In this document: one piece after another, positions 27,301 through 57,300 of the stretch
Position numbering within the stretch: position 1 is the stretch's first letter
How the letters are laid out: each line of letters begins with the position of its first letter
Assembly: GCF_000003605.2 (NCBI RefSeq)
Contig: NW_003141835.1
Span: 12,822 to 76,821 of the forward strand
DNA from: Saccoglossus kowalevskii
Taxonomy: Eukaryota; Hemichordata; Enteropneusta; Harrimaniidae
DNA length: 64,000 nucleotides
Reading direction: 5' to 3'
The notes under the pieces: generated by a model
The model's database searches: none
What the model saw: only the letters and a program-made list of their open reading frames with translations
Told to the model about the DNA's origin: nothing
Position numbers and translations under genes: made by a program

Positions 27301-30300
27301 CTAGGAATATTACAATGTTACAGGAGAAACTAATAGGGCATTAGCTGTTTTGCTGATCAGTTTATTTCAGGCTTTCTTTGTAAGCAATTTGTATTGTTGA
27401 GAGAACTAAATAAGAGCATTCATACATTGCATATTTCGGTTCTCTTTGCAGCCAAATTTGGTATGTGTCCATTCAATCAACCACGTGGTGTCTGTAAACG
27501 TGTTATCAATACCTGTACTGAAGACTCTGATTGCATTGGAAATAAGAAATGCTGTAACAATGGATGTGGTCTCAAGTGTGTTGTCCCTGATGTTGACAGT
27601 AAGTGATCACTCCTATATAGTAGTGGTTTGTTCTTGTAATATTAGTATTCAACATCAGCTCAAATTACTAAAAATATCAAGTTCTGAACCATTCCGCAAT
27701 AAATTATTGAAATTGTTCATGCATCTCATAAGTGGAGAATAATTAAAAATATCAATACAATATTGTGATATACATGTACTGTAAGACTATGTCCAGAAAG
27801 TAAAATACTGACAATGTGCTGTGTATGTTGGTGTGGCTCAGTAGAGTCAAATAAGATAAATGAATTAGTACTGAATAATGACATTTTGTATTTTTATTCA
27901 GCTACAATCTGCACATCAGTACCAGCAACGTGCACTGAGAAGTGCCTTGAAGGTTATGCCACCAATGATAAGGGCTGTGAAATCTGCAAGTGTAAGAAAA
28001 CACCTGAGATGTGTGGAACTGAAGTCATGTGTGATCTATTCTGTCAGTACGGATTTGCCACAGACAATAGAGGCTGTGAAATCTGCAAGTGTAAGGAACC
28101 AAGTAAGTTATTAAATTAGTTTGGCAGCCAGTCATTACTCTCTGTTGTATCATCTGTGGTTGGGTTCGGTCGCCACATTCCAACTTGAGTAAGGATTTCA
28201 GCCGAACAACTTGAACTCTCACGAATTACTAGTTAACACAAACTGCATTTATTTGCAAACAAAACTCTTCAAACAAAAGTGTAAACTTCTGATAAATACA
28301 TAAACTTGTAGAATGCCTTAAAACATGATGAACTAACTGACCCACAGTTCAGCACAGACTAAAACTAGAACAGAACTACCGTTTAACTTTTAAAAGGAAA
28401 ATAGAACATTACGGCGTTAACCAATCAGTGACTGCGTACTAAATTAATAATGGAGTATCAGCCAAAATCTATGGCTTATTATGTTTTAAACGATATCATC
28501 ACTGTATCTCCAATAGAAGTGTACATATTATAAAGGAAATGAATTTATTGTGTCAATTTACTATCGGTATACCTAAATACAGTATTTTAAATAATTAATG
28601 ATAAAGCTGTATTGAAAATGCTTATTTTCTAGATACTGTGTAATTAATTATCTCTAACCCTTGATGTTTTTTAATTTTAATAAAATATTTGCGTTGTATT
28701 TGATTTGTTATCAGCAATGCCAACAATGAATATGATGTCACCAGAAATAAGTTCATTATTCTGTAAACCAATCACAAGAGAGACATGTAGCGTGAAATGT
28801 AACCATGGATACATGACTGATAGCATTGGATGTGAACTCTGTGCCTGCCAAAAACCAGGTAAGAGATGATTATTAACTTAAATTTACCCTTATGTTATTC
28901 TAAAAAAATCATCACATATTTATACAAAAATTGCCTTTACTTTCCTCTCATACTGGTGTATAGTTTTATCTTATTGTTGCACATCAAGGGAATACGCTTC
29001 ACTGTTACTATGTGTGTTGTGTTACAGAAACTGAGTGTACACCATTAACTGCCTGTGCACAGTACTGTCCATATGGATATGCTACAAATACTGATGGATG
29101 CAAAATGTGTATGTGCAAACAACCTAGTAAGTATTATCTTGTCTTGTCTGGGAAACATCTCCTGATGGTATTCTCGGGAGTGGACATCCGGGCATTTTCA
29201 GCACATGGCAACCAACACGGTGAAAACAAAGGCCGAAAACTCTCAGAAAACGGTACTTTGGGATGGTTGTTAAGACTCCCCTGAACAGTGTAACAAGATT
29301 ATACCCATGCATGTGTAACACATATAAATTTGATTGTTTTTCAAATTTTCACCGGCTCTTCGCTCGGCGTTCCGCGTACCTCAGCAGTGTGCGCAGAGCC
29401 CATAGAAATACATGGTACAGTGGTGCGCGTGTTAGCAAACGTGGAATGTCTTGTGACGTAGCTCTGCCCCGAGGATAGTGTATTCACTTTCAATTCATGG
29501 GTAGAATAGAAACTGAAAGCCCCCTCTACAGATAGGTGAAATGAACGGGAAAACGCAGGTGATATGTAAGCTGATTATAAATGATCATATGAGACTGCAG
29601 GCAGTTTATGTATGAGGGCACTGTATGATGTATGAGGGTGCTACATTGGTGTGGATGGGGAGCATCATACTATGGCGTTGAGGGTTTTATTGGTTGTCTG
29701 GGAGTGATGCTACCTTGTTTTCTTATTTAAATTACATTCTTGTGTGCAACAAATTTATATATACCGGTAATGTTTAACTTGAAAGAAATGTTATCAAGTG
29801 ATGAATTTTGTAATATCACCGGTGATTACCGGTACATGTGTTGAAATATTTTAATTTTTATCATGTCATTTATTACAGCAATCTCCTTCTTACCAACTGG
29901 TCTGTGTACACCATTGACTACAGAAACATGTGACAAGACATGTTCAAATGGATATGCCACCAATGAAATAGGATGTGCTGTATGTAAATGTATGAGAGCT
30001 GGTGAGTAATTAGTAAACTAAGGAGTCCTGTATCCCAAGCCCCCTAAGTGAGCAATAGTAAAACTATTTTAGATTACACATCTTTCAAATTCTGTAAAAT
30101 ACATTATATTTCCTAGTTAAAATTACTGGTAATTAATTAATTAAGACTTTTGGGTGTTTTGTTTGGAATATATTTTCACTGATTTTTAATGAGTTGAGTA
30201 TAAAATGTTGAAAGGGTATATTCACTGAATTTTATTTTTACTGAATCATCCCTATCAAGGAAAATAAATTCGAACCGAAAATAAAGTATTTTACTACAGT

Positions 30301-33300
30301 ATGCAGTCTTGTAGTGGAGGCCTTGTCTTGATCACTCAATACCCACTTTACATGTAGTTATAAATGAAGGCCACAATGCCCCATCCCTTTAACAAATTGA
30401 ACAATTTGATTTTGAACTTCAATTTTTTTTTATAGCTCTAAGTTGAAATTCCGATTTTTGAGAAGGGATTATTGTGTTGAGATACCCTTACCTGATGAAA
30501 AGTGACCATCATTAAATGTGTATAGCACATTATTTAAGCACGAAAATACTCATATAATACATTCACTTTCGTCAGTTCCCATGTGATGTTGACGTCAGTA
30601 CAACACTATAACCTTTCTTTGTTTTGTTTTTACGTTCGATTTCATGCATATCGCAGGATATGGTCTATTACTATATTACGGAAAATGGTCTATTACTACA
30701 GCATATTCTTTTTTCATAATATTTTCACAGAAAGTGAATGTGTAAGAATGGAAAGCTGTAATATCAGATGCCCATTTGGCTATGCTACAGACGACACTAG
30801 ATGTAAAATCTGCAAATGCAAATTGCCAAGTAAGATAAAATGAATAAATTTCTTCTCATAAAATACTTTCTGTAAAACATTATCACTGCTAGTAATATTT
30901 ATGATATGATAGCTAGAGGGCACATTTCTTCAGATTGTGTATGATTATGTATTTTACGTTCTGTAAAATCATTTCTTTTCATTGGCAATCTATTTCAGTA
31001 TTTTGATATTTTTAGTGTATTCCCTGGGTTCATGAGTTACATTGTTATTTCATATGTTCACATATTCATATGAATTTAATTTCAAATTAACGAATTTCAC
31101 TTGATAGCGAAAATTAAAATCCAGTGAATAATTAATTCATTTACAGTATTGTATTCTTGCTGAATAATTAATAATATGCCACAAATGCCAATATGAAAAA
31201 TATTTAGAAAAACTGGTAATACCAGAAAAATTTTTTTTTGTTGAAACTGTTAAATCAAAACAAAATTTATCAAATGTATATTCACTCCTACATTTTTACC
31301 TTGCCCGTACCATCAAAGATGGAAGGGAAAGGTATATTAAGGGAAAAATTTGTCTTTAATATTATTTGTCCTGTGTCATTATAGCTATGTGTCCTCCAGT
31401 TAATTCTGAGAATTGCAATGAGGAATGCACATATGGTTATATCACTGACAAGTTTGGATGTGAAATCTGTTCCTGTAAATCCCCTGAGATGGGATGCAAC
31501 GTGGATGAATCAACTGAAATGATACGCATGAAAGAAACGTGTGCTTTTGGTCTGTGTACTGATGCCAATGGTTGTGATGAGAACAAATGTAAGATGCCAT
31601 GTAAGTATAAAACAAACATTTTCTGTAACCACTCTAAAAATATTTCCTTTTCTCCTTCACCATTTTCTCTTCCTCCATACTTTCCACATCCCAGTGGGCC
31701 ACACAAAATAATAATTGACACTATATATGACAGCATATGACACCACAAATATGTGTGGTCTATAGTGACATATATTTGAAATAAATAAAAAAAGTAATGC
31801 TTAAAGCGCCTAGCAAAACACATAAAAAGTTCTCAATGACAATAAGCCTGTTTTATTTATTAGGTTTTTAACTTTTAAAATTGTGTTGTTATTCTTTACA
31901 TCAAGTGGTTGATAATTTCATAACCTGAGAGCCGCATAATAGAAGACATGTAAATGTTGGTGTATTTAAAAATTTATATTTTGAGCACAGACTAGCCAGA
32001 CAACAAGCTGTCATTAGATTTGATAAATCAGGGAGCTGTATAATGAATGGCGAGAAAGCTTAGCAGTAAAATTTTATAATTAATTTTTATTCTTCGTTAC
32101 TAACAGCTACATGTACTGCAGTCACTCCCATGACATGCAAGCTGAACTGTCTCTATGGTATGGCCACTGATAAATATGGATGTGAGACATGTATGTGCAA
32201 GAAACCAGGTAAGGATGCAAGTTGACACAAAATCTATTAATTCTATTATTTAACCAAGATTTATAAGATGAGGCTATGCAATGAAAATTGAATGCGAATT
32301 AAAGAAGTCACATAAACTGCGATATGATCACAAAATTGCTAGGAAAACCTTATTCCTAGAAATCTCAATGCAGATTAGTGACAGAACCAGTTCGTGTTCA
32401 ATTCAGACCCTTTTTTGTAGTGTCTTTGTATATTCACAAAGCATGTACTTGTGTTTTGCATTATTGAATGGGGGCAATAATCTCAGTCATTTCCATGCAC
32501 CCACTGCATTCTGTAATGCTAGTAATTGAAACTGTGTTTGATTGACGTGCATGGAATGGGATCACTTTCACAAATCATGAGGATTTGCTTCTTATTACAT
32601 CTTCATCACATATATTATACATATATTTATTTAATAAATCTTTAGTATTAAATATATTACTCTTCCAGTGCAGCCCTATAATATATGTAAAAATGTTTGT
32701 CTATTTGGTTTTAATAGCTATTGGTAATGTTTGTTTTTCCAGTAACCCAGTGCAGTCCTATCAGCAATGACATGTGTACAAACTTCTGTCCATTTGGTTT
32801 AGCTACAGACAGTGTTGGTTGTGAAATCTGTCGCTGTAAACAACCAAGTAAGTAGAAAACATGATAAAGTGACTACCTGGTCACTTGATGATTTGATTGG
32901 TCAAACCTTTTTTAGTTCATGACAAAATGTTCACTTGATGAATTGATTGGTCAAAAACTTTCCATTTAATGACACTTTATTTGATTGGCCAAAACTTTTC
33001 CAATTAATGACACTTGATTTAATTGGTCAAAACCTTTTTAGTTCATGACATCATGTTCACTTGATGATTTGATTGGTCAAAACCNNNNNNNNNNNNNNNN
33101 NNNNNNNNNNNNNNNNNNNNNNNNNNNNNNNNNNNNNNNNNNNNNNNNNNNNNNNNNNNNNNNNNNNNNNNNNNNNNNNNNNNNNNNNNNNNNNNNNNNN
33201 NNNNNNNNNNNNNNNNNNNNNNNNNNNNNNNNNNNNNNNNNNNNNNNNNNNNNNNNNNNNNNNNNNNNNNNNNNNNNNNNNNNNNNNNNNNNNNNNNNNN

Positions 33301-36300
33301 NNNNNNNNNNNNNNNNNNNNNNNNNNNNNNNNNNNNNNNNNNNNNNNNNNNNNNNNNNNNNNNNNNNNNNNNNNNNNNNNNNNNNNNNNNNNNNNNNNNN
33401 NNNNNNNNNNNNNNNNNNNNNNNNNNNNNNNNNNNNNNNNNNNNNNNNNNNNNNNNNNNNNNNNNNNNNNNNNNNNNNNNNNNNNNNNNNNNNNNNNNNN
33501 NNNNNNNNNNNNNNNNNNNNNNNNNNNNNNNNNNNNNNNNNNNNNNNNNNNNNNNNNNNNNNNNNNNNNNNNNNNNNNNNNNNNNNNNNNNNNNNNNNNN
33601 NNNNNNNNNNNNNNNNNNNNNNNNNNNNNNNNNNNNNNNNNNNNNNNNNNNNNNNNNNNNNNNNNNNNNNNNNNNNNNNNNNNNNNNNNNNNNNNNNNNN
33701 NNNNNNNNNNNNNNNNNNNNNNNNNNNNNNNNNNNNNNNNNNNNNNNNNNNNNNNNNNNNNNNNNNNNNNNNNNNNNNNNNNNNNNNNNNNNNNNNNNNN
33801 NNNNNNNNNNNNNNNNNNNNNNNNNNNNNNNNNNNNNNNNNNNNNNNNNNNNNNNNNNNNNNNNNNNNNNNNNNNNNNNNNNNNNNNNNNNNNNNNNNNN
33901 NNNNNNNNNNNNNNNNNNNNNNNNNNNNNNNNNNNNNNNNNNNNNNNNNNNNNNNNNNNNNNNNNNNNNNNNNNNNNNNNNNNNNNNNNNNNNNNNNNNN
34001 NNNNNNNNNNNNNNNNNNNNNNNNNNGATTGGTCAAAAATTCTGCATATCATGAAAATATTGCCACTTGATAATGACCATTAAATGAATTATCTATACAT
34101 GTAGCAATGCAAACAAATGACCCTCAACCATGCAAGTAAGTGTTATGATATCAGAGTTTTAAATATGTCAAAATTGAATTTTGTTGTCCATTTTTGGAAA
34201 TTCTATATTGTTTAATTTTTTGGCTACACAGATATTATGATGCAAATGACTTCTATGGATAAAGCACTAACAATGCCAACTACACCTCTGTGTATGCCTG
34301 TCACCTGTGAACTTCAGTGTAGGAATGGTCTTGCCACTGATATGCTTGGCTGTGAGACCTGTGCCTGCAAGAAACAAGGTATACCTACCGGGTAGATAGT
34401 ATTCTCTTCAAAACTACTCAGCATGCCTGTGTATTGTATTTGTTTTCTTTTATTGTAGTATTACTTTATTATCTTTGTTTAGAAATTTAAAGTAGCAGTC
34501 AGTGAAAAATCGTAATATGAAACCGTAGTTAATGTGTAACCCTAGTCAATACCAAATCAAATTATGTATCAAAAATACATACCATACTTTTCATAAATGA
34601 TCACTAAAATAACGTACCCATTGATACATACATTTGTATACATGTAGAAGATATTCAATCCGTAACTGTATTTATTAAACATTGAAATGTAGTAATTTTC
34701 ATATGTTTCTATTAATTTTTAATAAATACGAAATTACCCAGTTAGGAATTTTGATATCCTGTTTATTACATGTATGCATTTCCAGTTGTTTCATTAGCAG
34801 AAACTAACATCCCCTTTGAATCTTTAAATACGATTTAAAACAAAAACTCTTATTGGTGAAACTGAACATTCAGATTGATCAAATAATTTTAACAAAAATT
34901 TGACTAATTATTAAACAAGCTATGTTTTAGCATTTTAGGAGGAGACTATTCTATGACATCACAATTTAAAATCTCATGCAAGAACCAATCAGATTTGCAG
35001 CTCAGGGGTTCAATATGAAAAAAAATATCGCATGGCCTTATGTCACTGCTACTGTATACATGTGATAAATAAAATTACAATGTAGATAATCTTATCAGCT
35101 TTTTACCTGCATGTGCTTTGATTTCAGATGCTGAATGTCCAGTTGTACTTGATAACATCAATTGTCCATTAAAAGATGTTTGTCCTTATGATTTAGCTAC
35201 TAACATAAATGGATGTGAAATCTGTCAATGTAAACAGCCAAGTAAGTTATCCTTTTCTGTTTTCACTTTTTTTGCCACAGAAATCATATTCATGTTTGGG
35301 AGGTATGTAAATGTACGGTAAAACAGCCATTGCGAGCGTCGCTGCGAGTTCGCAATGGCGAAAAAACGGGCGATTGTGAATTCGCAATGGCAAAAAAACT
35401 GACGATTGAGAGTTCGCAATGGCAAAAAAACTGACGATTGAGAGTTCGCAATGCCACAAAAACAGTCGACTGAGAGTTCACAGTAAGACATAAAACAAAA
35501 GGCTGATTTATATTGTTGAGCGTTGCTGCAGTGGAAAATAGAAAACAGTTTTTAAATGTCGTGTGAACCATCAAAGGTATGTCGACAGGCAACCAATGGT
35601 AGATGTGGATTCACGCAACCCTTCTGTTACATTGTACCAAACATGAAGCGGAGAGATTTGACACAGCATAATAAAAGTCAAACTCTCTTGCGAGGACGTT
35701 TCATTTGATGAATTATTTGAGGGAAAAAACGTTGCGACAGGATGTAATTCACAGCGTTCCGCAGAACCATTGTATTCATAATTCGAATTGCAAAACAACC
35801 CCGAACGTGGTGTGCAGTCTGCAGACAGCGGTACGTTTCACCTGCAAACTGCACTGCAATCTGAATCATTACAAATATAAAAACCTGAGCATCATTTTAT
35901 TTTTGTTACATATTTGTACATATTTTCCAGATAACGAGAAGTTTGTTTCATCATTGTATTATATTCCTGAGATCACACATAATTTTAAGTACGATGCGTC
36001 TTTTTTTACGAAATTGATAATTTTAAGCAGTCTCGAGCTTGATGCAGAAATGGAATTTCCCAAGTGGTTCAATTATCGCCTGTTTTTTCGCCATTGCGAA
36101 CTCGCAGCGACGCTCGCAATGGCTGTTTTACCGTACATTTACATACCTCTGTTTGGGACTACATGACAGGGCTGTGCGGCCTATCAAATGGCAGTTTAAT
36201 GAGCTATCCTGGCATCAACCAGGCTCGGTCGAACACAAGCACCTGCAGACCTTAACCAAGCCTTCCCATTGTGTCTGTGATATACACTCACCCAGGGTAG

Positions 36301-39300
36301 GGGTCGACCCTTTTGATGTTCAGCCTGAGGTAGGATTTGAACTTGGGTCTATCGATCATGATTCTGATGCGACAACCACTATGCTACCAGTGACCGGTAC
36401 AAGTATTTAAAACGTTCACGGTCGCCTACAAGTCAGGTCGAAGAATAGTTTGCTCGTTTTCACTTGATTCCTGAGTAACCCATTCATGTATATATGTTTT
36501 GAAATACTGAGTTGATTGTAGTTTTCACTAATACATGTATTTTAACTTTCATTTATAATAGTCAACTGTGAACCGATGAGTGCACTGACGTGTCCTGAGA
36601 CATGTGTTAATGGATATGCCACTGATGAGAGAGGATGTGAAATCTGTGAATGTAAAAAACCAAGTAAGTCTACATCTGTGTTAATCGAAGATGTGTCATT
36701 ACTGTTTTGTTAGTCCACTCAGACAGTTTTGGGGGAGGGTGATCAAATTGAATCTTTGGTGATCACCTCTGCATACATCACGTACAATTTTTATGTAGAT
36801 ACCACTGAATTAAAAATCAAATTATTGTAATTATGTGTTTTTTATCGATATTCTAGTCTTGGAATGCTCTCCTATGACTCTTATGACTTGTGCAAAGACA
36901 TGTACATATGGATATGCCACCAATGAACGCAGATGTGAAATATGCATGTGCAAACAACCAAGTAAGTACAGTACACTTTTAAAGTGAATGAAGGCAAAGA
37001 ATGTTTATGAATTCTAGTAAACCACTATGTATATGATCCACACAGTATACACTATGCTCCCCTCACTATACACTATTATACACACCATATAAACTATGAT
37101 CTATACACTATTACCCCCTTACTATACACTATGATACAATTCATACAAGCTATGATCTATACACTATGATCTACCTAATATACACTGCTTCCGTCACTAT
37201 ACACTATGATCCACCTAATACACTCTATGATCCACACATACAAACACTGTTCCAAATAATTTACATTATGGTCCTCATACCATATATTATGTTTCACACA
37301 CTATATGATATAGATCATACACTGTATTTCACACACAATATACAATGATCTACACATTTTGTTTTTTTGATTAACTACGAATGACTGGTGGCATTTTGAA
37401 TGTAGAATAGAATGTCTTTTTTTCACTCATCTGTTTCTCTGGTATTAAATAACAAATTATTATTTTTTTCTTTACAGCAACAACAGCAGTGACTATAATG
37501 AATACTCCAGTGTGTGAAGCGGTCAGATGCCGAATGTTCTGTCAGGAAGGATGGGCTACTGATTCTTATGGTTGTGATACATGCAAGTGTAAAAAAGCTG
37601 GTAAAATATTTTTTTTTTCCTTTCTTCAAGGTTTTCTAACAATAAGAAATGCTTACGAGGATACCTCAAAGTATGCATAAAGACAGTACAGCAGAAGTAC
37701 TGACCGGTGTATAGCATAGGTTGATGCAACCACATACTGTCTGAGTGCATACTTTGCTGTGCCCTCATATTAACTTCGTTGGTGTATATCTCTTATACAC
37801 CATTCTGTATTATTCATAACTTTACATTCCTTTATGAAATCTGCATTTTGTTGTGTACAGTGTACCTATTATTGTGAAAGCTACGTCTACATGTGAGTGA
37901 CAATGTATTTATTCTGAAAGGAGTTAGATACACTGTTATATTATTCTGTTTATAGTTAATGAATGCCCAGTTATCACTGAAGAGATGTGCCCGATGAAGA
38001 AGCAATGTCCAAGAGGTCTGGCAACCAATGAAGATGGATGTGAAATCTGTAAATGCAAACTGCCAGGTACAAATAATAGATCTAGTTTAAATAAATAATA
38101 CACTCTGAAAAATAAAAAATTTAGAAACAGCTAAATGTCAATAATTTGCAGTACATTTGAATTTTATTTCTGCTGTATGTTTGTGAAGAAAATATACAGT
38201 AGTTTAAAGTGGGAGGGTCGTCACCTGCGCATGTACGAGAATTTAGTCCCAAGCGACGATAACAATGGATGCTAAAATTGCGAAGACTCATGGATAGATG
38301 CTTGTTTGTAAACAATGACACGCTATGGTCATCTGACGCATGTGCAGGTGTCGACACCCTCGCATTAATACTTATCACATTGCATTCTGCAAGCCTCAAC
38401 AGATAGCCAAAATGAATGGGGGGAGAAAAACGATGTCAGCTTCTGATGTGTCTTAAAAATCAACTATTAGAATACAATGTCACATTTTCACTTGTAATGT
38501 AATGTTTTCTGTTTTCACTGTCAGTGGTGTGTTTACCAATGGATGAATCTGCCTGCACTGAAACATGTCGTAATGGATTTGCTACTGACACTAGTGGATG
38601 TGAAATCTGCAAATGCAAGAAGATTCCAACAGGTAAGAGAATACAATGAACTTCTTAGGGGTTTTAAAGTCATGTAATATTCATGTCCAAGTAAGTCATC
38701 AAATCTGCCATCTTGTCTGTCCTAGTTTATATTTAGTCTAGTTACACTCACTAATACCACATTGTGTCAGATAAATTATTTGAAATACATATATATTTGT
38801 TTTGAAAAAAATCGCCCTTCTTAGCAAAACAAAAATTTTGTTTTTAGATATTGAGCAAAAAAAATACAATTTTAAATTAATAAAATTCACTTTACAACTA
38901 ACAAAAGTATATGATGTGAGCATAGTCAAATGCCATTTTCATTGGGAAAATAAGTAACTGAAACCTGGACCTGGGAGCTGATTCATGATCTGACAGAATA
39001 TTTCTGTTGTTTTGCAGCTGTATCAAAAAATCTCAGGAATAGTGATCTAGTGTGTCCACCAACATCATCTGAAACATTTGGTATTTGTTTGACTACATGC
39101 AGTCGTGACTCTGAGTGTGAATCTGATGAAATGTGCTGCAGTAATGGATGTGGTCGTATGTGTACTAAATCTGTCAGAGCTGGTAAGTGCTGGTCATCAT
39201 TTTACTAAACATGCCACAGCTGGTAAGTGCTGGTTATATGTGTACTAAATCTGTCAGAGCTGGTAAGTGCTGGTCATCATTTTACTAAATCTGTCAGCTG

Positions 39301-42300
39301 GTAAGTGCTGGTCATCATTTACTAAACCTGTCAGAGCTGGTAAATGCTGGTCATCATTTTACTAAACCTGTCAGAGCTGGTAAATGCTGGTCATCATTTT
39401 ACTAAACCTGTCAGAGCTGGTAAATGCTGGTCATCATTTTACTAAACCTGTCAGAGCTGGTAAATGCTGGTCATCATTTTACTAAATCTGTCAGCGATGC
39501 TAAGTGCTGGTCATCATTTTACTAAACCTGTCAGAGCTGGTAAATGCTGGTCATCATTTTACTAAACCTGTCAGAGCTGGTAAATGCTGGTCATCATTTT
39601 ACTAAACCTGTCAGAGCTGGTAAATGCTGGTCATCATTTTACTAAACCTGTCAGAGCTGGTAAGTGCTGGTCATATGTGTACTAAACCTGTCAGACCTGG
39701 TAAGTGCTGGTCATATGTGTACTAAACCTGTCAGACCTGGTAAGGGCTGGTCATGAGTGTACTAAATCTGTCAGAGCTGGTAAGTGCTGGTCATCATTTT
39801 ACTAAATCTGTCAGAGCTGGTAAGTGCTGGTCATCATTTTACTAAACCTATCAGAGCTGGTAAATGCTGGTCATCATTTTACTAAACCTGTCAGAGCTGG
39901 TAAATGCTGGTCATCATTTTACTAAACCTGTCAGAGCTGGTAAGTGCTGGTTATCATTTTACTAAACCTGTCAGAGCTGGTAAATGCTGGTCATCATTTT
40001 ACTAAACCTGTCAGACCTGGTAAGTGCTGGTCATATGTGTACTAAACCTGTCAGACGCTGGTCATATGTGTACTAAACCTGTCAGACCTGGTAAGTGCTG
40101 GTCATATGTGTACTAAACCTGTCAGACCTGGTAAGGGCTGGTCATAATTGTACTAAACCTGTTCTGTATTAATTGTTTTTTCACAGATTCATTGTGCAAA
40201 CTTGTAGACAAAGAAACATGTAAATTGGACTGTACGCATGGCTTTGCAACGGACTACGATGGATGTGAAATATGCATGTGTAAATCACTTCCATACATTA
40301 CCTATAATGTTATTAAGATGACTCCATCTCCAATGTGTAGACCTGTTACTAAGGAGACATGTGCCAAGACCTGTAACCATGGCTATGCTACTGATGACAT
40401 GGGATGTGAGGTCTGTGTTTGCAGAATACCAGGTTAGTTTCTGATGGTATTTTTATGTGAGTTGTGAAGCGTATCTCAATTCATTCAACTGTAAATCTTT
40501 TGCACATTCATATTTGATGAACATGCTCTTAAAATTATGCATGAAATAAGGTTATATACTTCTCAGCAACATGACATACCATAATCCTTCCATGACTTTT
40601 ATCATCTTATTTCTTCAAAAAATCCATACACCTCAAAACATAACTAATGTAGAATGCTATATTTCCAATAAACATACCTTGAACAGTTAGAGGGTAAATA
40701 TGCAATACAAATATTTAATAAATTTACAACAAGTTCCTATAAATTTCACATTGAAATAGAGAGATATACAGAACCCAAAACTAAGTTTGAAGATAGATAG
40801 TGTGAGTTTTTTGGGGATGAAACAGATTTCATTACAGAGTACTAGAAAAGCTTACTATGTATTTATGCTGTCTTCATCTATTCCTGGAATGTTCATAAAT
40901 TGTAGATTTAATTTTCTAGTGAAAATGTCAGAAATGAATTCTAAGTGAAAATGAAAAATTCTCCTGTACCAAAGTCTTCTCAAGTTTGAGACGTTTTGAT
41001 CATAATTTCATCATTTTATTTTTGTAGACATAGATTGTCCAGTGGTTAATGAGGTGACCTGTCCCTTGAAGCATACCTCACCATATGGACTTGCTACCGA
41101 CCACAATGGTTGTGATATCTGTATGCAAAGACAACCCATCATGTGCACTCCAAATACATGCTCCACACACTGTGTTGATGGATATGCTACAAACGACAAA
41201 GGATGTGAAATCTGTGAATGCAAGAAACCAGGTGACTTTAGTTTTATTTGTTCTTTCGACTTTATTTTATTCCAAAAAAATTAATTTTCTTCTTACTTTC
41301 CAAAGTCATTCAGAAAATGTAAATAAGTGTGTGGTCACTGAAAACATTTTAAAAGGACTGTTGTTTTTGTGCCTATGGCAAATGTATTTTCACAATTTGA
41401 TAAAATAACTTTTGTGCATTTTTATGTATTTTTTATATTTTTTTTTTATTTTGAACCAATGGCTACAGATCTTGGTAAATATTTTTGAAAATTATAGGTA
41501 TATTTTTTTGTGTGGAAGATGATAAAATGTAACTAGATGATGAAATGTAACTAAGTACATCATTTCATTTTATTGCTGCATGTATTGTGAAGAAGAATTG
41601 AACCTTTGACCTTTAAACACCAAACCCAACTTTTGTCACTTTCTAGAAAATAAATACCTAATTTTCAAAAAGATCTGTTGACATAATTTAAAAAATATTT
41701 TCAAACATTTTGATCAAAATCTGTAGGCAGTAAGAAATGATGTTTTATTAGAATTTAATTTTTGTTTAAAATTGTTGCAAGGAAAATAGAGTTTACAAGT
41801 ATGTCTTTGATTTACAGCAATAATTTGTCAGACTGTCACAACTAAAAATTGCCCAAACATGGCATACTGTCCAAATGGCCTTGCAACTAACCCAAGCAGA
41901 TGTGAAATATGCAAATGCAAGATGCCAGAAGGTAAGGGAATCCCTAACTATTTTTTAATTATTTTTAATTTTATGTAGCTTAACTTTGGTTGGATCAATC
42001 ATTGTCATCCAACAAATGGAAACATGAATAAAAAAATAAAATCATTTTATTTTCAGTGACAACTTTATTGAGTATGGAAACAAGCATGACATCAAGTAAC
42101 AAGAAAATTATCAGTTACAAACCAGAAACTGTTACGTGCCAAAAAGTAACCCCATTGTCTTGCCGTAAGACCTGTCACTATGGTTATGCAACCGATACTC
42201 AGGGTTGTGAAGTCTGTGAGTGCAAGCAGAAAGGTTAGTTACTGTAAAATACTTTATTTTTGCTGAAAAGATTTTTTAGGTGTTCTGTATGAAATTTATT

Positions 42301-45300: not shown

Positions 45301-48300
45301 GATGACTAACACTGAGGGATGTATGATCTGTAAATGCAAACAGCCAAGTAAGTTATCAGACATTTGTTTTTGTTTATAACAATTTAAAAACCACTCAAAA
45401 GATGAAAATTGTGGGAGATTAATATGATTGAAAACAGAAACTTTAATTTTTAGAATAATTGGATGAAAACTGGTTGCTGTAAAGTACTTTATTTTCACGC
45501 AGAATTTGTTGTAGTTGAAGGGATGATTCAATGAAAATAAAATCCAGTGAAAAAAAGCTTTTTTCGTATATTTTACATTCAACTCATCAAAAGTCAAAAT
45601 AACTTCATACAAAACAACTAAAATGTGTTTCAGCAAAAATTAATTCCAGCTAAAATAAAGTATTTCACAGTGTAATACAACTAATACAATTGGATGTAAA
45701 GTGATCGAACAGGAGCAATCACATGTACACTCAATTCTTTTCCTTTTCAAAAAAACTGAACACTTTTTCACTAATTCGTACCTTTCTACAAACCACTAGT
45801 GTAATAAAAAAAAACAGTAAACCAAATAGCCATATGATAATACAATAACCGTAATTAATTTTTTTTATTTTCCAGGTCTGTGCAACATAATGAATATGAA
45901 AATGAAGAAGACTGATTGTATCTATGGTTACGCAACTGATGAAAATGGATGTGAAACCAATGAATGCAAGAAACCTTGTAAGTAACTGGCTTCTGCATTT
46001 CACCAAGCTGTGTATATAGCTATGGAGTTTTCTTTTGACACATTTCTCAGTCTCAAAATTAAAAACGCCTGAAGGAACCAAAATACCCAGTATTTACTGA
46101 AATGTACTCATCATCACATGTGTCCCAAAACACTGACTAATATGTTAGAATGTCAGTGGAGATTAACATGAAAATAACATTTAATGTTTTCCTACGTTGT
46201 TTTTGCAGTACATGAATGTTCTTCCATGACCTGTGACCTTAAATGCACACATGGATATGCAACTGACATGACAAGATGCAACGTCTGCAAGTGTAAACAA
46301 CCAAGTAAGTTTTATAATATTGTAAATTGATTACATGTTGATTACCATATTTGTTTTGTTAAATCACCCAATAAAAGTATGTATTGTTCCATTACAAGCA
46401 CAACCTTGTTAGCTGATGTTGTCCTGTCCATTTATATAAAAAAATTATTCTTACTTGTGATTGAAAAATGTACAAATACAAAAACAAAATGTAAAAAGTC
46501 TAGAATTTTGAGGTATAATTAAAATGTGAAATGTTGCATGAAAATGAAAGAGCATATAATAATATAGTAGCTGTGCCACTTTATTAATTGCTAAATTTAT
46601 TTTGAACATGATCATTGGTGTTAATTATGTCAACATGGAAAGTCAAAGAATAATTTAAATAAAAATATTATTTAATATTCGTAATGTTGGGAATATTGAC
46701 ATTTTTAAAGAAACTTAATTTTTTAAGCATTACCTATTGTGATTTTAACTTTATAATAACATTTTAAGCTCCACTGTCAACTTTTTCAAGCAGAGCTTAT
46801 CATATGATATCAATAGGTGATTTTCCGTACAATTGCGAGATCTCGCGAGATGCATGAAAGACGCACATCGAACGTCTGCTGTAAAAATCGAACGATTTGA
46901 TTTTCAACTCGAATTTCTTTATTTCGTAGCTCACATCGACCGGCCGATCTTCGACAGAGGAATATTGCTTCCGAATACCCTCACTTAATCGAAATTGTCT
47001 ATCATCAAATGTGGACAGCACATTATTAAGCATGGAAATGTCCCCCAAAATACTTTCGCGTTTGTTGAATCCCACGCGATGTTTGATGCCACTACGACGC
47101 TATGACCTTTGTTTGTCCTGTTTTTACATTCGATTTCACGCATAACGCGTGATTCTCGCAGTGAACGGAAAATGGTCTATTGACGATATCTTCAATTCTC
47201 TAATTTTGATGAATATTTTTGGTAAAAAGTGATATTTTGACTTCCGACAAGTCCGATTGCTTTGGTACTTTCTCAGATTTGTTCATTTCGTGATGATATC
47301 TTCAATTCTGATGAATAATTTTGTCATTTTTGGAAAAATTTTGAAAAATTGATGCCTCTGATATTATACATATAGGTACCTCATGTGAACCGATCTCAGA
47401 TTTGTTCACTTCATGATGATATATCTTCAATTTTCTAATTGAAATGTACATTGCTTAAGAGGCTGTTTGTTAACAATAATAATAAATGTATTTCATTTTT
47501 TTTTTACAGAAACCCCTGTGGATTTCCTGACATATTTCCCTACAACTTACAGTACTCCAAAGATGCTGCCCACTACCAATATGGACATCCCATATATGCG
47601 TATCTTTGAAGAACTCTGTCATCCAGTCAACCCTACCACTTGTACTTTGAAATGTGTTAATGGATATGCTACTGATAGAACAGGCTGTGAAATCTGCAAG
47701 TGTAAGAAGACAGGTATGTTTCTATGGAAACGAACTGATCATTTTTGAAACTGTTTTAATTTAACCACAAGATATTGTACAATTGCAATATGCTGTGAAT
47801 TGTGAATATCTCATAGTATATCTGGCTGCAGCCATGATTTTATTTTAAATGTAATTCTGAGACATGAAAATAACTAATAAAGCACAAAAATCTATGTGTA
47901 AATGTGATTCAAAACAAAATGAAATGGGCCCTGGAACCAAATTGGTTATAGAAACATTGAGCTGTGGTGGAAATTTGCATCCCTTTTTTGGTATTATGAA
48001 GTTTATTCATTTTATATATAGTTTCCTGTTAGCGGCAACGTTGGCATATGTAAAATTGTCTCAATTGTCATAAAAAATACAGTGTAAACAAACAGTACTT
48101 ATTGCCAAGTACAATCATGTATTAGATTACAAATATAAGTTTTTGTCTAACTCATACACCAGTTTTGTATTCCAATTTGCAACTAATATGTAAATAATAT
48201 GTAAATATGTTATGCTTTATTCTTCACTACAGAAGCTGAATGCCCCGAGTTATCTATCCATATTTGTTCTAAAAAGAGTACCTGTTCCTATGACTTAGCT

Positions 48301-51300
48301 ACCGATGAGAATGGCTGTGAAATTTGTGCCTGCAAAAAACCAGGTAAAATAATTTACATAATGTGAAATAACAGTTTCATGGTTTACTGAACAAAATTTA
48401 GCCCACTTATTTAGTTAACACTGAAGGTATTCCCAAAGAAACGGTGCCTTCAATTAGAATGTTTCCTAACTGCTTTGTGTAAGTTAACAGTTTCATGGTT
48501 CCCATGTCTCTGAAACTGTTTCAGACTTTCCATTTTGTTTACTAAATATGTACCACTTACTGTGTGCATTTGTGCCAAAAACAGCCCACCTATTTAGTTA
48601 CCAATGAAAGTGCCTACATTTTCCAATATCTGCTTTTTATTTTTTGTAAATTTAACAGTTTCATGACTACCTATTTCAGTGGCTGCTCATTGACTTCTCA
48701 TACATTGTACTCTTTCAGTAAAAGAACATGACCTGGGAATCCAAAACAAGTTTAATTTGAATCTATACATTATGTTTAATTTTCAGTGACTTGCCCACCA
48801 GTGAACCATTATACTTGTCCTAAAGTGTGTCACTATGGTTACGCTACTGACCATACTGGCTGCTCCATCTGCCAATGTGTTAGCACCAGTAAGTATAACA
48901 CAGATTGTACTTCCTGTAAAATAATATACATGTATCTTGAAAAGTTCACCAATCAATTATAATTCTATGCAAATATCTCTAGTTCATGAATTATTTGGTA
49001 CTTTTTGGTTTATATGTATAAATGAAATAGAAATTGTACCATATTTGTAAGTATGTCAAAGATTTATTTGTGTTTGATATTAAGGTTCCAAATGTCCAAC
49101 TATCAATCCATTTACCTGTCTGAAGACTTGTAAAGATGGTTATGCCACAGATGAGGAAGGCTGTCCAATTTGTCGCTGCCATCAACCTAGTAAGTATATT
49201 TTGCAATAAAACAATTTGCTGTAATTTCTTTTAATCAAATAGAATTTGTTAATTTACCTTATTTGGGGGTAAGCTGCATCACAAACATTGAACAGATTCC
49301 AAATTATGTATGTCATTTTCATCCAAACACTTTCTTTACTTACATTGAAAGGATCAGAATAAAGTGCATGATGGAAATATAAATCAAGTACAATTTTGTA
49401 ATGTATCTTTTTGGACATTCCAGTTGTTAAATTATGACTACAAGTGGAAAAAAGATGTAAAATAATATGGTTATCGTGAGAAAGTCGCAACGTATGCACT
49501 TAGGCGGTACTGGAATGCACCAACCTCAATTACGTTTCTGCTGATATGATTACTTCAATGCCTTTGTGCAAAATTTGTGTTGTGATCACCTCATGATAGT
49601 ACAATTTATCTCAAAGCTTCTTTTAATGAACATACAATCAAAAAAATATCCGCTTTCAAATGAGTTTCTTCTCATTTAGTAAATATTTCACAGTCACTTA
49701 TGTACATGCGAATATTTCAGTCACTTAATTGATATGTACATGCTAATATTTCAGTCACTTATTTGATATGTACATGCTAATATTTCAGTAAGCAAGATGG
49801 GCACCTCTATGCAGATGTTCTTGCAAAATAAAATGGATAAATGTCCTGAATTTGAGTGTAAAACAGTCTGTCAAAATGGATATGCTACCAACAGCGAAGG
49901 CTGCCATATCTGCTCCTGTAAGAAGACCGAACGTGAATGTGCCCACACTCCCATGTGTAGCGAACACTGCCCTCTTGGGTTTGAAACAACAGAAGATGGT
50001 TGCTCCACATGCACATGCAAGAAACCCAAGATGTGCACTCCAGTGAATCCAAATACATGCACTAAAGTCTGCCCACGTGGCTATGCCACAGATATACAGG
50101 GATGTGATGTTTGTCAGTGTAAGAAATCAGGTATGTTTTAAATACTCATTCAATGTTGTTGTTCACATTTACCAAGTCTCCTTAATAGACTTTTACTAAT
50201 GTAGTGCCACAGTAAGCACATTCCATCACATCAGGATGTTCTAGGTTTGATTCCTGGTGCCCACTGTTCACTCAGCATTATGTACCATCGATCTGCTTCG
50301 CCTTTGTGTGACTTAATCACCTGTGCTCTTGCAATCAGTACTAAACGGATATCGAGAGAGACAGCAAGGACTTCAAGGTCTCGCAAATTCATTTGGACCA
50401 TAAATATAAAAAAAAAAGTTGTATATGCATATGTCTCTATTCCAGTTTGTGTTTCCAGTTTGTCTGGCTGAATCTTTTTTTATGGGATATTATTTATAAC
50501 TATGTTTATAACCAGCCAAATAGATTACTGTAAAACACGTCTTTTTAGCTAGCATATCAATTTAGAATAAAGTATATTATTGCAATGGGATTGTTGTCAT
50601 TTTAGCTATGAAAATTAAGATTTTGTTAGTCCCCGGGGACTCCGTGTGTGCGTGCGTCTGTGCGCGCGTCTGTGCGCGCGTCTGTGCGTGCGTCCGGACC
50701 TGTATCTTAGAACTGCCTAGACCAATTACAATCAAACTTCACACATACATCATACATGATATTATACATATGCACGTCAATTTGTTTCACAATCTGATTC
50801 AAGATGGCAAAATCAAGCATTTCTCGGCTGTTTACAGATGGATTTTGTTAAAACTTGGTATATACATTAGAAATTACAGGACCTTGTTAATTCATGTATG
50901 GAGTCAAATTTGCTAACATGGCATGGAGCTATTTCAATGTGTTTTACAGTATTCCACCCAGTCCAGTGCCATTATACAGAATTGTTGCTTGAATGTATTT
51001 TCATGTATTCTATAATTTGTTGATCATAATAATATTTTCTTTACTGCACAGTGACTGAATGCGCACGAAGCATGGTAGATCTGCAATGCATGTTGATTAA
51101 TGAATGCCCATATGATTTAGCAACTGACATGTATGGATGTGAAATCTGTCAATGTAAGATGCCACCACTAGTACCTAAGAAGACTGTTACCTGTTCTCTC
51201 ATTACTCCCGAGACCTGCAGTGAATCATGTGACAATGGTTATGCCACCGATGACACTGGATGTGAAATCTGCAAATGTGCACGCCCAGGTAGGTTTGTTA

Positions 51301-54300
51301 TAGATTATAAATTTCAAACTACTCATTAAATTCATATGCAATTTAGTGACTACTGAATAAATAAACTGAGATACTGGTTTCACACCTGTAATTTAAGTTG
51401 TGTCTTCGGTTAGATCGGTTAGGAAGCACTGTAAAGCCCTAACAAAATTTGGCACTGAGCTATTTTTAATTATTATTAATTAAAGCTATTATTAATTGAT
51501 TAAGATAAATATTAATCTTAAAAAAGTGATGGTCATCACTGCTGCATTCATTCAATACACTATGCAAATATTTATACTAAGCAATTCAATTTCCTTCCCT
51601 CAGAGAAAATTTGGCACTGAGCTATTCTCTAAAAATAAGTTAACTGGAATACTCAAGGATGATGGTCATTGCAACCACATTCATTTAATATAATTTACAT
51701 ACATTGTATTAGCATGTGTGTCAAATACTGTACATTGTTTATTTACAAAAATTCTAAATTTCTGTGGCTGCGATAACTTTGCCTTTTATGGAATGCACAA
51801 ATTTTAGGCAAAAAGTTGACGGGATGAAGTTTTGTTATGCATATGGTAATGTCACTGAGCTAACACATCAGTTAATCTAATACACTGACAGTTGACCACC
51901 CATTTATTATTAATATTTCAATGTTCACTTCACAGATTATGAATGTTCTGTTATGCGTGAATCTACCTGCCCAATAATGAATAAATGCATGTATGGATTG
52001 GCGACTGATATGCGAGGATGCAGAATCTGTAAATGCAAGATTCCAGGCGAGTAGTTCTTTCATCAATCTCAATATTTCGTTCAGCTGAATTTTGAAAGCC
52101 AGGGTTTTAGATAACATTCTATGCATCCATCTATGTATCCACACCTGTATCTCAGACATGCCAGAAATGATTATGTTCAAACTTCACACATGCATCGTAC
52201 ATCTTGGGATACAAATGCACATACATTCATTTTTATTATCCATTTAATTTTATCAAAATATAATATCTCTGCCATTCAGGAACTGGTTTTTGAACGTGCA
52301 TCAAAATATTTGCTCAAACTTGGTACTTACATATGACATGGCAACTTGATGCATGTCTTAATTTTTGTTTTGAAGATCATTTTCAAAATGACCGACTAGT
52401 GGCCATTTTGTTTTAAAGAAAACTTTTTCATCCTTTTGGAACTGATTCAAATATTATATACGTTACATTATGTCATGTTCTGATGCTGATTCAAAATAGT
52501 TCCCTGGGTTCAGATTTTTTGTATGACAGGGACTACGTCATGTCAATGACTAGTTCTCCATAAATATTTGTTGGGAAATAAAAAACAATTTTGTTTTTTA
52601 ATACAAATGATATTGTAAAAAGTTTTCTCACACTTAAAGTTGATTTTGTGAAACAAACCTGAAGTTACATGTCTAAGCAAGCATTGATAACTCGAACAAT
52701 TGCTTATTATTATAAATGTAAATAAATGTAAATGTCCATAATATTGAGTTTTCAAATGACCATAATATGTTTGTTATTCTTACATTTATAGCCGTATGTC
52801 CAAAAATGACTTGCACTTCACGGTGTGCAACTGGATTCGCTACTGATGATAATGGATGTGAAATATGTCAATGTAAGAGAGAAAACACTGACATGATCTG
52901 TCAAGAAATCACGTCTGATAACTGTCCTAAAACATGTGTACATGGATTAGCTACTGATACCAACAAATGTGAAACATGCACTTGTAAAAAACCATGTAAG
53001 TATCAATAGATCTTTATAGATGTTCTATGATTGCCATCAAAGATTTATGCCTACCAATAGCAACCCCAATATTACTCTGTTTACTTCTGTTTGGTTCGTG
53101 TCATACTGTAAATTACTTTATTTTCGCTTGGATTTAATATTTGCTATTTTCGCAGAAGAAATGATTCAGTGAAAATACAATCCAGCGAATATACCTTTTT
53201 CCTATATTTTAACATTCAACTCGCCAAAAATCAGTGAAAAAAAAAATCCAAACAAAACACCTGAAATGTTTTTCCAGCAAAAATTAATTCCAGCTAAAAT
53301 AAAGTATTTTACAGTAATAACTTTATTGAGTAATATTTTTTACAATTAATGCAACAATTACCATTATTTGCAACATATAAAATGCACACTAGACTTTTTG
53401 AGTTGTTTCTTGTATAGCCATTAAAACCCCCCTCTTTTTTTGAATTTAAAGGTTGACAATTTATGTTATCACTGTCTCTAAGCAAACATCAAACATTACG
53501 TNNNNNNNNNNNNNNNNNNNNNNNNNNNNNNNNNNNNNNNNNNNNNNNNNNNNNNNNNNNNNNNNNNNNNNNNNNNNNNNNNNNNNNNNNNNNNNNNNNN
53601 NNNNNNNNNNNNNNNNNNNNNNNNNNNNNNNNNNNNNNNNNNNNNNNNNNNNNNNNNNNNNNNNNNNNNNNNNNNNNNNNNNNNNNNNNNNNNNNNNNNN
53701 NNNNNNNNNNNNNNNNNNNNNNNNNNNNNNNNNNNNNNNNNNNNNNNNNNNNNNNNNNNNNNNNNNNNNNNNNNNNNNNNNNNNNNNNNNNNNNNNNNNN
53801 NNNNNNNNNNNNNNNNNNNNNNNNNNNNNNNNNNNNNNNNNNNNNNNNNNNNNNNNNNNNNNNNNNNNNNNNNNNNNNNNNNNNNNNNNNNNNNNNNNNN
53901 NNNNNNNNNNNNNNNNNNNNNNNNNNNNNNNNNNNNNNNNNNNNNNNNNNNNNNNNNNNNNNNNNNNNNNNNNNNNNNNNNNNNNNNNNNNNNNNNNNNN
54001 NNNNNNNNNNNNNNNNNNNNNNNNNNNNNNNNNNNNNNNNNNNNNNNNNNNNNNNNNNNNNNNNNNNNTCCCCATGCAGAACGTCAACAGAATCTTGCAT
54101 TACAGTTGTGAAGACAATAAATTTATTTTTGTGAGTTCAGTGCAATATGTCTGCTTATGATTAGTATAACACAGTAACATTTTTGTCCAAGTTATCCCAA
54201 ATTGTTAGGGCTTTCAACTAAGTTTTGCAGACAATACAACTATGAGACCTGTATGAATTACTGAGTTACTGGTTACAAATTTTTATCTTGTATTTATAGT

Positions 54301-57300
54301 GAATAAGTATTATTCCAAAAAAGTTGTAAATTAGTTGTAAATACCTTTGGGTTCACAACTTGCTGGCATTCACATGTCTTTTTGGCTATTCCATCTAACC
54401 TCCTCCGACTGGCTTTCTTTGATTGTTATTACTTAAAGCGAGGGAGTTGTCACCTGTGCATGCATCAGATGGCCATAGTGTGTCATTGTTTACAACAAAC
54501 GTCTACCCATGAGCCCCTGCATTTTTAGCGTGTGTTGTTATTGTCGCTTGGGACTCAACTTCGGCGCGTGCGCAGGTGACAACCCTCCTGCTTCAATATC
54601 CCATTTTGAAATTTGGGTTTATTATATACTGAGTTTTCAAACCTGTGTTTTCTTGTCAGCTATCACCTATATGACTGTTATTCATCAAGTAATGCAGAGG
54701 AACATTCTAGGAATGTCACCTTACATGCCAATGGAAATGATGAGTAAAATTACAACCACACACACACAATGTCAACAAGTATCCTGCAAAATGTACTGCC
54801 AGTATGGTTTCCAGATTGATGACAAAACTGGATGCGAGACTTGTATTTGCAAGAAAGGTAAATACATGTAGTATAATTCATTTTATAAATTCTAGTGATA
54901 TGAATTATTACATCAGTAATTTTTTGTCATGTAGAGTAACCTAACCTTTCACTACAAGACTGAGGTAATTTAATTTTTCAGTGTGAAAGTCTTTTTTGCA
55001 GTGAAACCTGTTTAAACTGAACACTATGGGAATGAGTTATTGTTTCCAGTGTATAGAGGTCTTTTATATTTTTAAACCTGTCTATACTGAACACTAAAGA
55101 GACTGAGATATTGTATCCAATTTATAGAGATCTTTTATACTTTTAAACCTGTCTATACTGAACACTACAAAGACTGAGATATTGTATCCAATTTATAGAG
55201 GTCTTTTATACTTTCAAACCTGTCTATACTAAACGCTAAAGGGACTGAGATATTGTTTCCAGTGTATAGAGGTCTTTTATACTTTTAAACCTGTCTATAC
55301 TGAACATTAAAAAGACTGAGATATTGTTTCCAGTTTATAGAGGTCTTTTATACTTTCAAACCTGTCTATACTAAACGCTAAAAAGACTGAGATATTGTTT
55401 CCAGTGTATAGAGGTCTTTTATACTTTTAAACCTGTCTATACTGAACATTAAAAAGACTGAGATATTGTTTCCAGTGTATAGAGGTCTTTTATACATTTA
55501 AACCTATCTATACTGAACACTACAATAACTGAGATATTGTATCCAATTTATAGAGGTCTTTTATACTTTCAAACCTGTCTGTACTAAACGCTAAAGGGAC
55601 TGAGATATTGTTTCCAGTTTATAGAGGTCTTTTATACTTTTAAACCTATCTATACTGAACACTAAGGGACTGAGATATTGTATAATATATAAAAACCTTT
55701 ATTGATATCGTATCCCTTCTGGGATCTAGATTAGAATACAATAAGGATATAAGGAACAATAAAATACATAAGTAATAATAATAATAAAAAAGAAATAAAT
55801 AGTAATACTGTGAAAATATTATTATATAAATATTTTTTGGTATTATTTTGAGGCAGCTGGTAAATTGCTTTTCATGAAATTCTCTCTTTTAGTGAAACAG
55901 TCGCTGATAAACTTGGCAATTGCTTGGACGGTTTCAGAACATTTTGTTATTGAGAAGTGCTTTCAGATTACTGGATAAGTTTACATTTTCAAACAAAGCA
56001 TCTCTTTCAAATTTGTACAGGTTACAGTTGAAGAGGAAGTGTTCTTCATCTTCAATTTCATTGGAGTCACAGACAGGGCATGTTCTATTTGAGATATCTA
56101 TGTTGTGATATCGCCCAACTTCAATCTGAAGTATGTGGGCACTTATCCTCAGTTTAGTCATAGATGATCTGTGGATGGGGTTTTTAATAATTTCAAGGTA
56201 TTTTTCAAGTGCAAAATCAGTTTTCAGCTGTCTGTAGGTACAAAGTTTATTTTTGTGATTAGTGCCTTTATTGTCATTATGCATTGTGTCTGTGCAGTGT
56301 TTTTCAAACATATTTTTTAGTTTTTTTGTAGCTAATGGGATAATACTGTTTTTTTCGCAAACATCACTAATTTCTAAAAGGTTCAGTAATTTTTTTATAC
56401 CTGTGGTCCAATTACTGACGTTTTCTTTGTCCAAATTGGTGTATCCAGTTTATAGAGGTCTTTTATACTTTTAAACCTGTCTATACTGAACACTAAAAGG
56501 ACTGAGATATTGTTTCCAGTTTATAGAGGTCTTTTATACTTTTAAACCTATCTATACTGAACACTACAAAGACTGAGATATTGTATCCAATTTATAGAGG
56601 TCTTTTATACTTTCAAACCTATCTATACTAAACGCTAAAAAGACTGAGATATTGTTTCCAGTGTATAGAGGTCTTTTATATTTTCAAACCTGTCTATACT
56701 GAACACTAAAGGGACTGAGATATTGTATCCAATTTATAGAGGTCTTTTATACTTTCAAACCTGTCTATACTAAACGCTAAAGGGACTGAGATATTGTATC
56801 CAGTTTATAGAGGTCTTTTATACTTTCAAACCTGTCTATACTAAATGCTAAAAAGACTGAGATATTGTTTCCAGTGTATAGAGGTCTTTTATATTTTCAA
56901 ACCTGTCTATACTGAACACTACAAAGACTGAGATATTGTTTCCAGTGTATAGAGGTTTTTTATATTTTCAAACCTGTCTATACTGAACACTAAAGAGACT
57001 GAGATATTGTTTCCAGTTTATAGAGGTCTTTTATACTTTTAAACCTGTCTATACTGAACACTAAAAAGACTGAATTATTGTTTCCAGTTTATAGAGGTCT
57101 TTTGTGTAGTGAAACTGGTCTCAACTGAACACTAAGAACTGAGATAATTGGTCAGCTTACAGAGATATTTTCGGTATTGAAACTTGTCTGTGAAATGGTC
57201 AGTCAGAATTTATATTGACTGAGGCATGATGTACATTCATTTTAAGTTAAATATTTGTATATTAATTTCAGCTCCCAAGATAGGATGTCCAGCTGTCACC

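Follow-up and report, generated by a model that had tools for sequence, protein, structure and literature searches.

Positions 12,822 to 76,821 of contig NW_003141835.1 in the genome assembly of the hemichordate Saccoglossus kowalevskii (NCBI RefSeq GCF_000003605.2) form a stretch of 64,000 nucleotides (nt), hereafter the window, to which all coordinates refer, and its central part is occupied by a long array of antistasin-like modules. A profile scan followed by a landmark parse recognises 43 six-cysteine units at 27910-54857, all on the + strand and all in phase-1 exons; the unit profile was built from 40 regular-expression seeds, and unit 8 is degenerate. The Pfam model PF02822 (antistasin family) scores 68.9 bits for a three-unit exon and 50.6 bits for a two-unit exon of the array, and a search of the species' own assembly with it (572 Mb, 4,830 contigs, E up to 10; 54 candidates scored, counts being lower bounds) returned at least 42 places, all on the contig of the window. 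These places are units 1-43 minus unit 8, all over the cut-off of 21.2 bits, with unit 20 the weakest at 21.2, so that membership in the antistasin family, taken as a six-cysteine unit above the Pfam cut-off, holds for 42 of the 43 units, unit 8 excepted. The complete ten-cysteine domain of antistasin and hirustasin is not matched, the units being without its N-terminal four-cysteine half, for which there is no room because the spacers are either short (5-8 residues at six linker-free junctions within fused exons) or consist of a cysteine-free linker.

The exon structure is regular throughout. A phase-1 acceptor is present for 35 of 35 exon-initial units, and all 20 exon starts proposed in a first-pass annotation made from the letters alone (34232, 35128, 36562, 36857, 42057 and so on to 54660) match an in-phase AG. 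The script assigned donors to all but two of the 35 exon ends; 29 of these donors lie 10 nt past the Cys6 codon, and the others belong to units 17, 22, 43 and 19, the last of which carries a GTTAGT at the usual place that the donor rule overlooked; unit 23, to which the script assigned no donor, also has GTTAGT there. At unit 40 (52046-52052), the second end without an assigned donor, no GT stands at the usual donor place and the sequence reads CCAG/GCGAGT, a possible GC-AG intron. Several exons are common to more than one unit, namely those of units 1-2, 7-8, 18-19, 20-21, 35-36-37, 38-39 and 41-42.

The two-unit period, and not the four-unit one, is primary in this array. When the 43 units were compared pairwise, with the cysteine columns and the two extra residues of the wide loop described below excluded, parity of unit number reached a z score of 11.1 against 8.1 for position modulo 4 (mod 4); the even periods mod 6, mod 8 and mod 16 gave z 3.7, 5.0 and 3.9, and no structure appeared by mod 3, 5 or 7. 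Parity stands at z 7.5 without the tail, 12.0 without the Cys1-Cys2 region and 8.2 without loop and tail. The Cys3-Cys6 part and the tail each show it by themselves, the Cys1-Cys3 part more weakly (p 0.03), and it holds within units 1-11, where the four-unit order is not visible (z 4.1, p 0.001). The best partner has the same parity for 34 of the 43 units (21 expected). Odd and even units differ in the residue after Gly, which is Tyr in 16 of 22 odd and Leu in 13 of 21 even units, and in a tail Pro, which 20 of the 21 even units have but just 8 of the 22 odd ones, with tail Lys also among the parity-carrying columns.

Splice sites divide the units in the same way. Each of the 17 even units that open an exon has its acceptor AG exactly 8 nt ahead of the first Cys; of the nine odd exons without a linker, eight have it at 5 nt, and unit 1 is the exception. 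At units 20, 24 and 32 the automatic nearest-AG rule chose a second AG nearer to Cys1; the association of acceptor offset with parity (Fisher p 1.8e-5) was computed on 24 exons, with units 20, 31 and 32 omitted and unit 24 in neither class. From the two offsets follows a Cys6-to-Cys1 spacing of 6 residues from odd to even and 5 from even to odd units, and the six linker-free junctions within fused exons, at 6, 6, 6 and 8 residues odd-to-even and 5 and 5 even-to-odd, have the expected length in five of six cases, unit 41 to 42 with its 8 residues being the exception. Parity is kept across a WAP exon that lies between units 17 and 18. It is also unbroken on both sides of the two runs of N in the array (33085-34026 and 53502-54068), and the number of any units hidden there must therefore be even.

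On this alternation a period of four is superimposed. Linkers rich in Met, Thr and Pro mark the L units (3, 11, 15, 19, 23, 27, 31, 35, 39 and 43; 10/43), a wide loop of five residues between Cys2 and Cys3 marks the A units (12, 16, 20, 22, 24, 28, 32, 38 and 40; 9/43), and the remaining units are typed B, including unit 5 with its linker of eight residues; unit 8, which stands at an A position and has the A width (Cys1-Cys3 distance 14), was not counted as A in any test. The resulting type string is BB LBBB BBBB LABB LABB LABA LABB LABB LABB LBBA LABB L, and the recurring L-A-B-B order that the first-pass annotation had proposed is exact in 6 of the 10 four-unit blocks from unit 3. Its five clean runs are borne out, and a sixth (units 15-18, with the WAP exon inside) had not been listed; its period of four is real but not primary, the stronger period of two having been overlooked, and its two consecutive B units are of two different kinds, odd type followed by even type. 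Over any four-letter word in any register the best count is 6, against a shuffled mean of 2.0 and a maximum of 5 in 20,000 shuffles, and the autocorrelation of the string has a z score of 6.3 for a lag of 4 units and of 6.5 for a lag of 8.

All A units are even-numbered and all L units odd-numbered. By position, linkers occur in 10 of 11 units at 3 mod 4, in 0 of 11 at 1 mod 4 (1 of 11 if unit 5 is counted) and in 0 of 21 even units, with Fisher p 3.4e-5 when unit 5 is left out, while the wide loop occurs in 7 of 10 units at 0 mod 4, 2 of 11 at 2 mod 4 and 0 of 22 odd units (Fisher p 0.03 within the even class). The Gly before Cys4 is missing only at units 6, 14, 22, 26, 30 and 42, all of them 2 mod 4, an observation made post hoc.

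Whether units at the same block position form groups of their own was assessed on a maximum likelihood tree of 43 rows and 33 columns, by counting label changes against 1000 shuffles because only 2 of 40 inner branches are starred. Parity requires 6 changes versus 14.6 when shuffled, with 0/1000 as low, and still 6 (0/1000) without any loop column; mod 4 requires 19 versus 24.3 (7/1000 as low); mod 3, mod 5, quarters and blocks of four show no departure from shuffled labels on this tree. Clustering by neighbourhood, the outcome that had been set against growth by blocks, was thereby rejected (26 changes versus 24.3 for quarters and 34 versus 33.1 for blocks of four). The expectation that units at the same block position cluster is largely borne out for the A units, which are separated from the other even units (21 in all) by 1 change versus 7.0 (0/1000) on a tree that retains three of the five loop residues, and which are also mutually similar in pairwise comparison without every loop column (p 0.0001). 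Among even units the 0 versus 2 mod 4 label is likewise visible in pairwise similarity, with p 0.0027, and p 0.0043 without loop and tail.

The L units behave otherwise, and the further expectation that all of them would fall together did not hold: among the 22 odd units the L label takes 8 changes versus 7.5 (783/1000 as low), or 9 without loop columns (954/1000). In core similarity L and odd B are likewise not separated (mod 4 label, p 0.24; L label, p 0.18), and they are therefore indistinguishable apart from the linker, so that a separate L lineage is rejected at the present resolution. A module super-repeat like that of titin has same-position modules that are more alike than neighbours, and this likeness is found for parity and for A among even units, and is lacking for L versus odd B.

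Growth in blocks, as first proposed, is supported, although the basic block comprises two exons and four exons are a second layer. For the ten four-unit blocks from unit 3 the mean between-position correlation is 0.18 (p 0.0075), versus p 0.13-0.65 in the other registers, a result given little weight here because period 5 is positive in the same test. An intron dot plot, from which block-level similarity had been expected, displays mainly dispersed repeats and no clear block similarity; the longest-matching intron pairs (26-27 with 30-31; 5-6 with 30-31) were discarded as dispersed repeats that are present also outside the array. Since the introns hold no clear block similarity, the copying must be old and the size of its unit has to be read from the order, and from that order we infer a copying of four exons that the DNA itself does not display. 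Longer blocks of 8, 16 or 20 units were considered and set aside: lag 20 had z 4.4 in a first scan and was not upheld with class controlled, where neither the highest value across lags 1-36 (p 0.31; p 0.01 for lag 20 by itself) nor the best collinear segment (p 0.59) reaches significance.

Taken with the directly observed units, parity, acceptor offsets, linker positions and clustering of A units, these results make a nested super-repeat comparable to that of titin the likely reading of the array, one in which an old two-exon copying was followed by copying of four-exon blocks in a matrix-like gene of antistasin, WAP and VWC modules. The ancestor would have been two symmetrical phase-1 exons, from which tandem copying made about 21 pairs; the odd member would have had its acceptor 5 nt before Cys1, mostly Gly-Tyr and a Lys-rich tail, and the even member its acceptor 8 nt before Cys1, mostly Gly-Leu and a K-x-Pro tail. 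Early on, one even unit would have acquired two extra residues between Cys2 and Cys3 (A) and the odd units of every second pair would have borne a Met/Thr/Pro linker (L); pairs of pairs would then have been copied to give L-A-B(odd)-B(even), and intron losses that fused exons, the insertion of one WAP exon and a change of type in a few units would have followed with the register undisturbed. The mechanism may have been unequal crossing-over in introns, and the predicted protein would be secreted and form a cystine-rich strand in which flexible linkers act as hinges between short rods of four modules.

Three results speak for a rival history, in our judgement improbable, in which the pair was the only growth step and the four-unit order arose by local conversions or by chance placing of linker and wide loop in alternate pairs: the parity signal exceeds the four-unit signal; four of the ten blocks (3-6, 7-10, 19-22 and 35-38), on which the first-pass annotation was silent, depart from L-A-B-B; and odd-class cores have no four-period (p = 0.24; 0.08-0.75 across column subsets). 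The last two also weigh against the nested history, as do the following. On the tree, with 33 columns and only two starred branches, the 0 versus 2 mod 4 label does not reach significance in the even class (6 versus 7.3, 235/1000), a shortfall to which the off-register A units 22 and 38 contribute, and A against non-A without any loop column takes 4 changes versus 7.0 (9/1000 as low). In a pair test, the likeness between odd units gave no indication of the likeness between their even partners (r = 0.00, p = 0.5). The block test is positive also for period 5 at 4 of 4 starts tried (p 0.000-0.003), an outcome probably due to odd periods running through each class in turn, which leaves it short of clean support, and introns 37-38 and 40-41 share a 78-bp match of 74%, unique to those two, at different block positions. 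Against copying of pairs alone stand the ten linkers, which occupy 10 of 11 units at 3 mod 4 and no unit at 1 mod 4, the four-period that even units keep without loop and tail, and a type string matched by none of the 20,000 shuffles.

Still less probable is a period set by selection, in which units would have been added singly and their types would have converged by position, with alternating spacing and a hinge at each fourth module; such an origin would agree with the lack of clustering among L cores, the uncorrelated partner similarities and lag-4 neighbours that are not especially alike with class controlled (z -1.75), yet acceptor offset, tail Pro, the Tyr or Leu after Gly and the loop all share one parity, the A units cluster without loop columns, and convergence would need to have hit many unrelated sites simultaneously. 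That the order is an artefact of introns misread as linkers and of types sorted by eye is very improbable, even though 100-nt open frames are not rare in AT-rich introns, the linker lengths of units 15, 27, 31 and 43 presuppose that the more distant acceptor is used where two or more could be, and unit 31 has a further AG 5 nt before Cys1. The linkers, unit 5 included, consist of Met, Thr and Pro to 40% and contain no Cys (227 residues), versus 12% and 4% Cys in intronic open frames (10,183 residues), a linker value reached by 0/5000 resamples; the eight linker exons other than that of unit 31, again with unit 5, have no phase-1, polypyrimidine-backed AG less than 23 nt from Cys1; and parity requires no typing at all. 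By composition the linkers thus look like genuine coding sequence.

For the nested history we further propose, tentatively and with more doubt than confidence, that the order acts as an assembly rule, the alternating 5- and 6-residue spacers and the hinge at each fourth unit fixing the geometry of a giant extracellular fibre. If so, geometry would be the reason why the order was kept through all 43 modules, through the fusion of exons and past an inserted WAP exon, in the manner of the match between titin and the thick filament, and the acceptor offset, a fossil at the level of exons, would show that the pair predates the four-unit block.

The predicted function of single units was approached through their altered cysteines and the presumed inhibitor site. 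Units 8 (31495-31599) and 29 (45881-45976) are without Cys2 and Cys5, and unit 20 (41036-41137) is without Cys3 and Cys6; if the disulfides 5-8, 6-9 and 7-10 of antistasin and hirustasin (PMC6265900) are equivalent to unit cysteines 1-4, 2-5 and 3-6, the losses fit antistasin-type pairing in 3 of 3 altered units. These paired losses favour modules that fold and are constrained. On the tree, units 8 and 29, one even and one odd, form sister rows (98/91). A structure modelled from 7 rows for the exon shared by units 38 and 39 (predicted local distance difference test 73, predicted template modelling score 0.36) has two short strand pairs, one per unit, and is too weak to use. A weak alignment to antistasin (1SKZ, E 0.043), together with the common cysteine pattern, puts the residue after Cys2 at the P1 site, which in antistasin is Arg34. 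At this putative site, located by that weak alignment, Lys or Arg stands in 8 of the 32 non-A units having Cys2 and Pro in 7 of the 9 A units, Pro at P1 being unsuited to a standard-mechanism inhibitor. Trypsin-inhibiting members of the family are reported with Arg or Lys at P1 (PMC6265900), and the A loops of five residues fall outside the published antistasin domain pattern because it permits 3-4 residues at that place (PMC12838937). The inhibitor-site residues suggest a structural, not inhibitory, role for most units; a minority of the 43 may still inhibit, and a structural hinged strand is favoured over a string of 43 protease inhibitors.

Among known systems, the titin A-band is the model for module super-repeats and, like the array, is a long series of small modules in which block position predicts module type and linker and which grew in nested fashion, short blocks before longer ones (PMC10665226). 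Titin differs in its Fn3 and Ig modules, its place inside muscle cells and its longer blocks (PMC10665226), whereas the array consists of cystine-rich antistasin units ordered by two within four and has, in the splice acceptor offset, a second record of that order. WAP groups and antistasin-like domains are also combined in the Lottia gigantea shell-matrix proteins Lotgi1|201804 and Lotgi1|239125, of about 85 and 103 kDa, for which the relevant section describes no order of antistasin units (PMC3374290, PMC4094399); the array, unlike them, has 43 units beside WAP, VWC and thyroglobulin-1 exons. In Hirudo medicinalis, MCRA follows the same two-to-four logic, a two-domain antistasin structure having been doubled to four, with domains I and III grouping together and domain IV grouping with domain II of the two-domain CRA; it is an anticoagulant of four ten-cysteine domains, one of them disrupted (PMC12838937), whereas the array has 43 six-cysteine half-domains. 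CRIM1 likewise joins VWC domains and antistasin-like units in one extracellular protein, with an IGFBP motif, a transmembrane segment and only four antistasin units against the 43 found here (PMC11922885). No description of internal order in an antistasin array was found in the open-licence literature searched. Module arrays often lose the record of their growth; in this one, marks of three sorts, namely the offset of the splice site, the length of the loop and the linker, agree over most of the 43 units, and the order of duplications can therefore be proposed and tested in relatives.

Table 1. Blocks of the antistasin-like array and the WAP exon within it, in window coordinates.
Feature	Position	Strand	Type or remark
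Units 1-2, one exon (leading odd-even dimer, no linker)	27902..28102	+	Sole odd linker-free exon with AG at 8 nt
Block 3-6: L3 (28762), even 4 (29036), odd 5 (29905), even 6 (30739)	28715..30829	+	LBBB; unit 5 linker short (8 residues), unit 6 without Gly before Cys4
Block 7-10: 7 (31390, no linker) fused with 8 (31495), 9 (32112), 10 (32751)	31385..32847	+	BBBB
Block 11-14: L11, A12, odd B13, even B14	34232..36961	+	Clean LABB
Block 15-18: L15, A16, odd B17, WAP exon, even B18 (fused with unit 19)	37478..40290	+	Clean LABB
WAP exon between units 17 and 18 (start = its first Cys)	39053..39182	+	Pfam WAP 2.4e-10
Block 19-22: L19 (second half of unit 18 exon), A20 fused with odd B21, A22 off-register	40291..41931	+	LABA
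Block 23-26: L23, A24, odd B25, even B26	42057..43639	+	Clean LABB
Block 27-30: L27, A28, odd B29 (four-Cys), even B30	44340..46304	+	Clean LABB
Block 31-34: L31, A32, odd B33, even B34	47510..49189	+	Clean LABB
Block 35-38: L35, 36 (narrow loop) and 37 in one exon, A38 off-register, fused with L39	49789..51164	+	LBBA
Block 39-42: L39 (second half of A38 exon), A40, odd B41 fused with even B42	51165..52995	+	Clean LABB
Unit 43: final unit, 3' of N gap 53502-54068	54660..54857	+	L

Outside the array, the flanks (1-27500 and 57286-62000) carry WAP and VWC exons, all on the + strand, and strict motif matches in the window number 12 for WAP, one of them inside the array, and 16 for VWC. Pfam names WAP, VWC and thyroglobulin-1 exons outside the array and the single WAP exon inside it (eight peptides tested, two unmatched); the thyroglobulin-1 exon lies at 5887, and a similar-looking open frame (L011, about 2132) was judged by eye. 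Cysteine-rich modules with NPCD...CxGC motifs and no Pfam match occur at about 6527-6650 and 61933-62030. The gene may run through the whole contig, which ends at 80,840 and whose 12,821 bases before the window are all N.

Tandem repeats accompany three of the exons. At 39163-40162 lies a 40-bp minisatellite, some 25 copies long, whose repeat takes in the final codons and the 5' splice site of the WAP exon, and its 13 exact GTAAG copies provide many donor sites in series. A 34-bp repeat of 2.7 copies, whose consensus contains TTTCAG, stands at 49682-49789, immediately upstream of the unit 35 exon. At 44999-45287, a 99-bp (33-codon) repeat of 2.9 copies, 96% alike, copies in frame the acceptor and first part of the unit 28 exon, which places three in-phase acceptors in series and is possibly an ongoing partial exon duplication.

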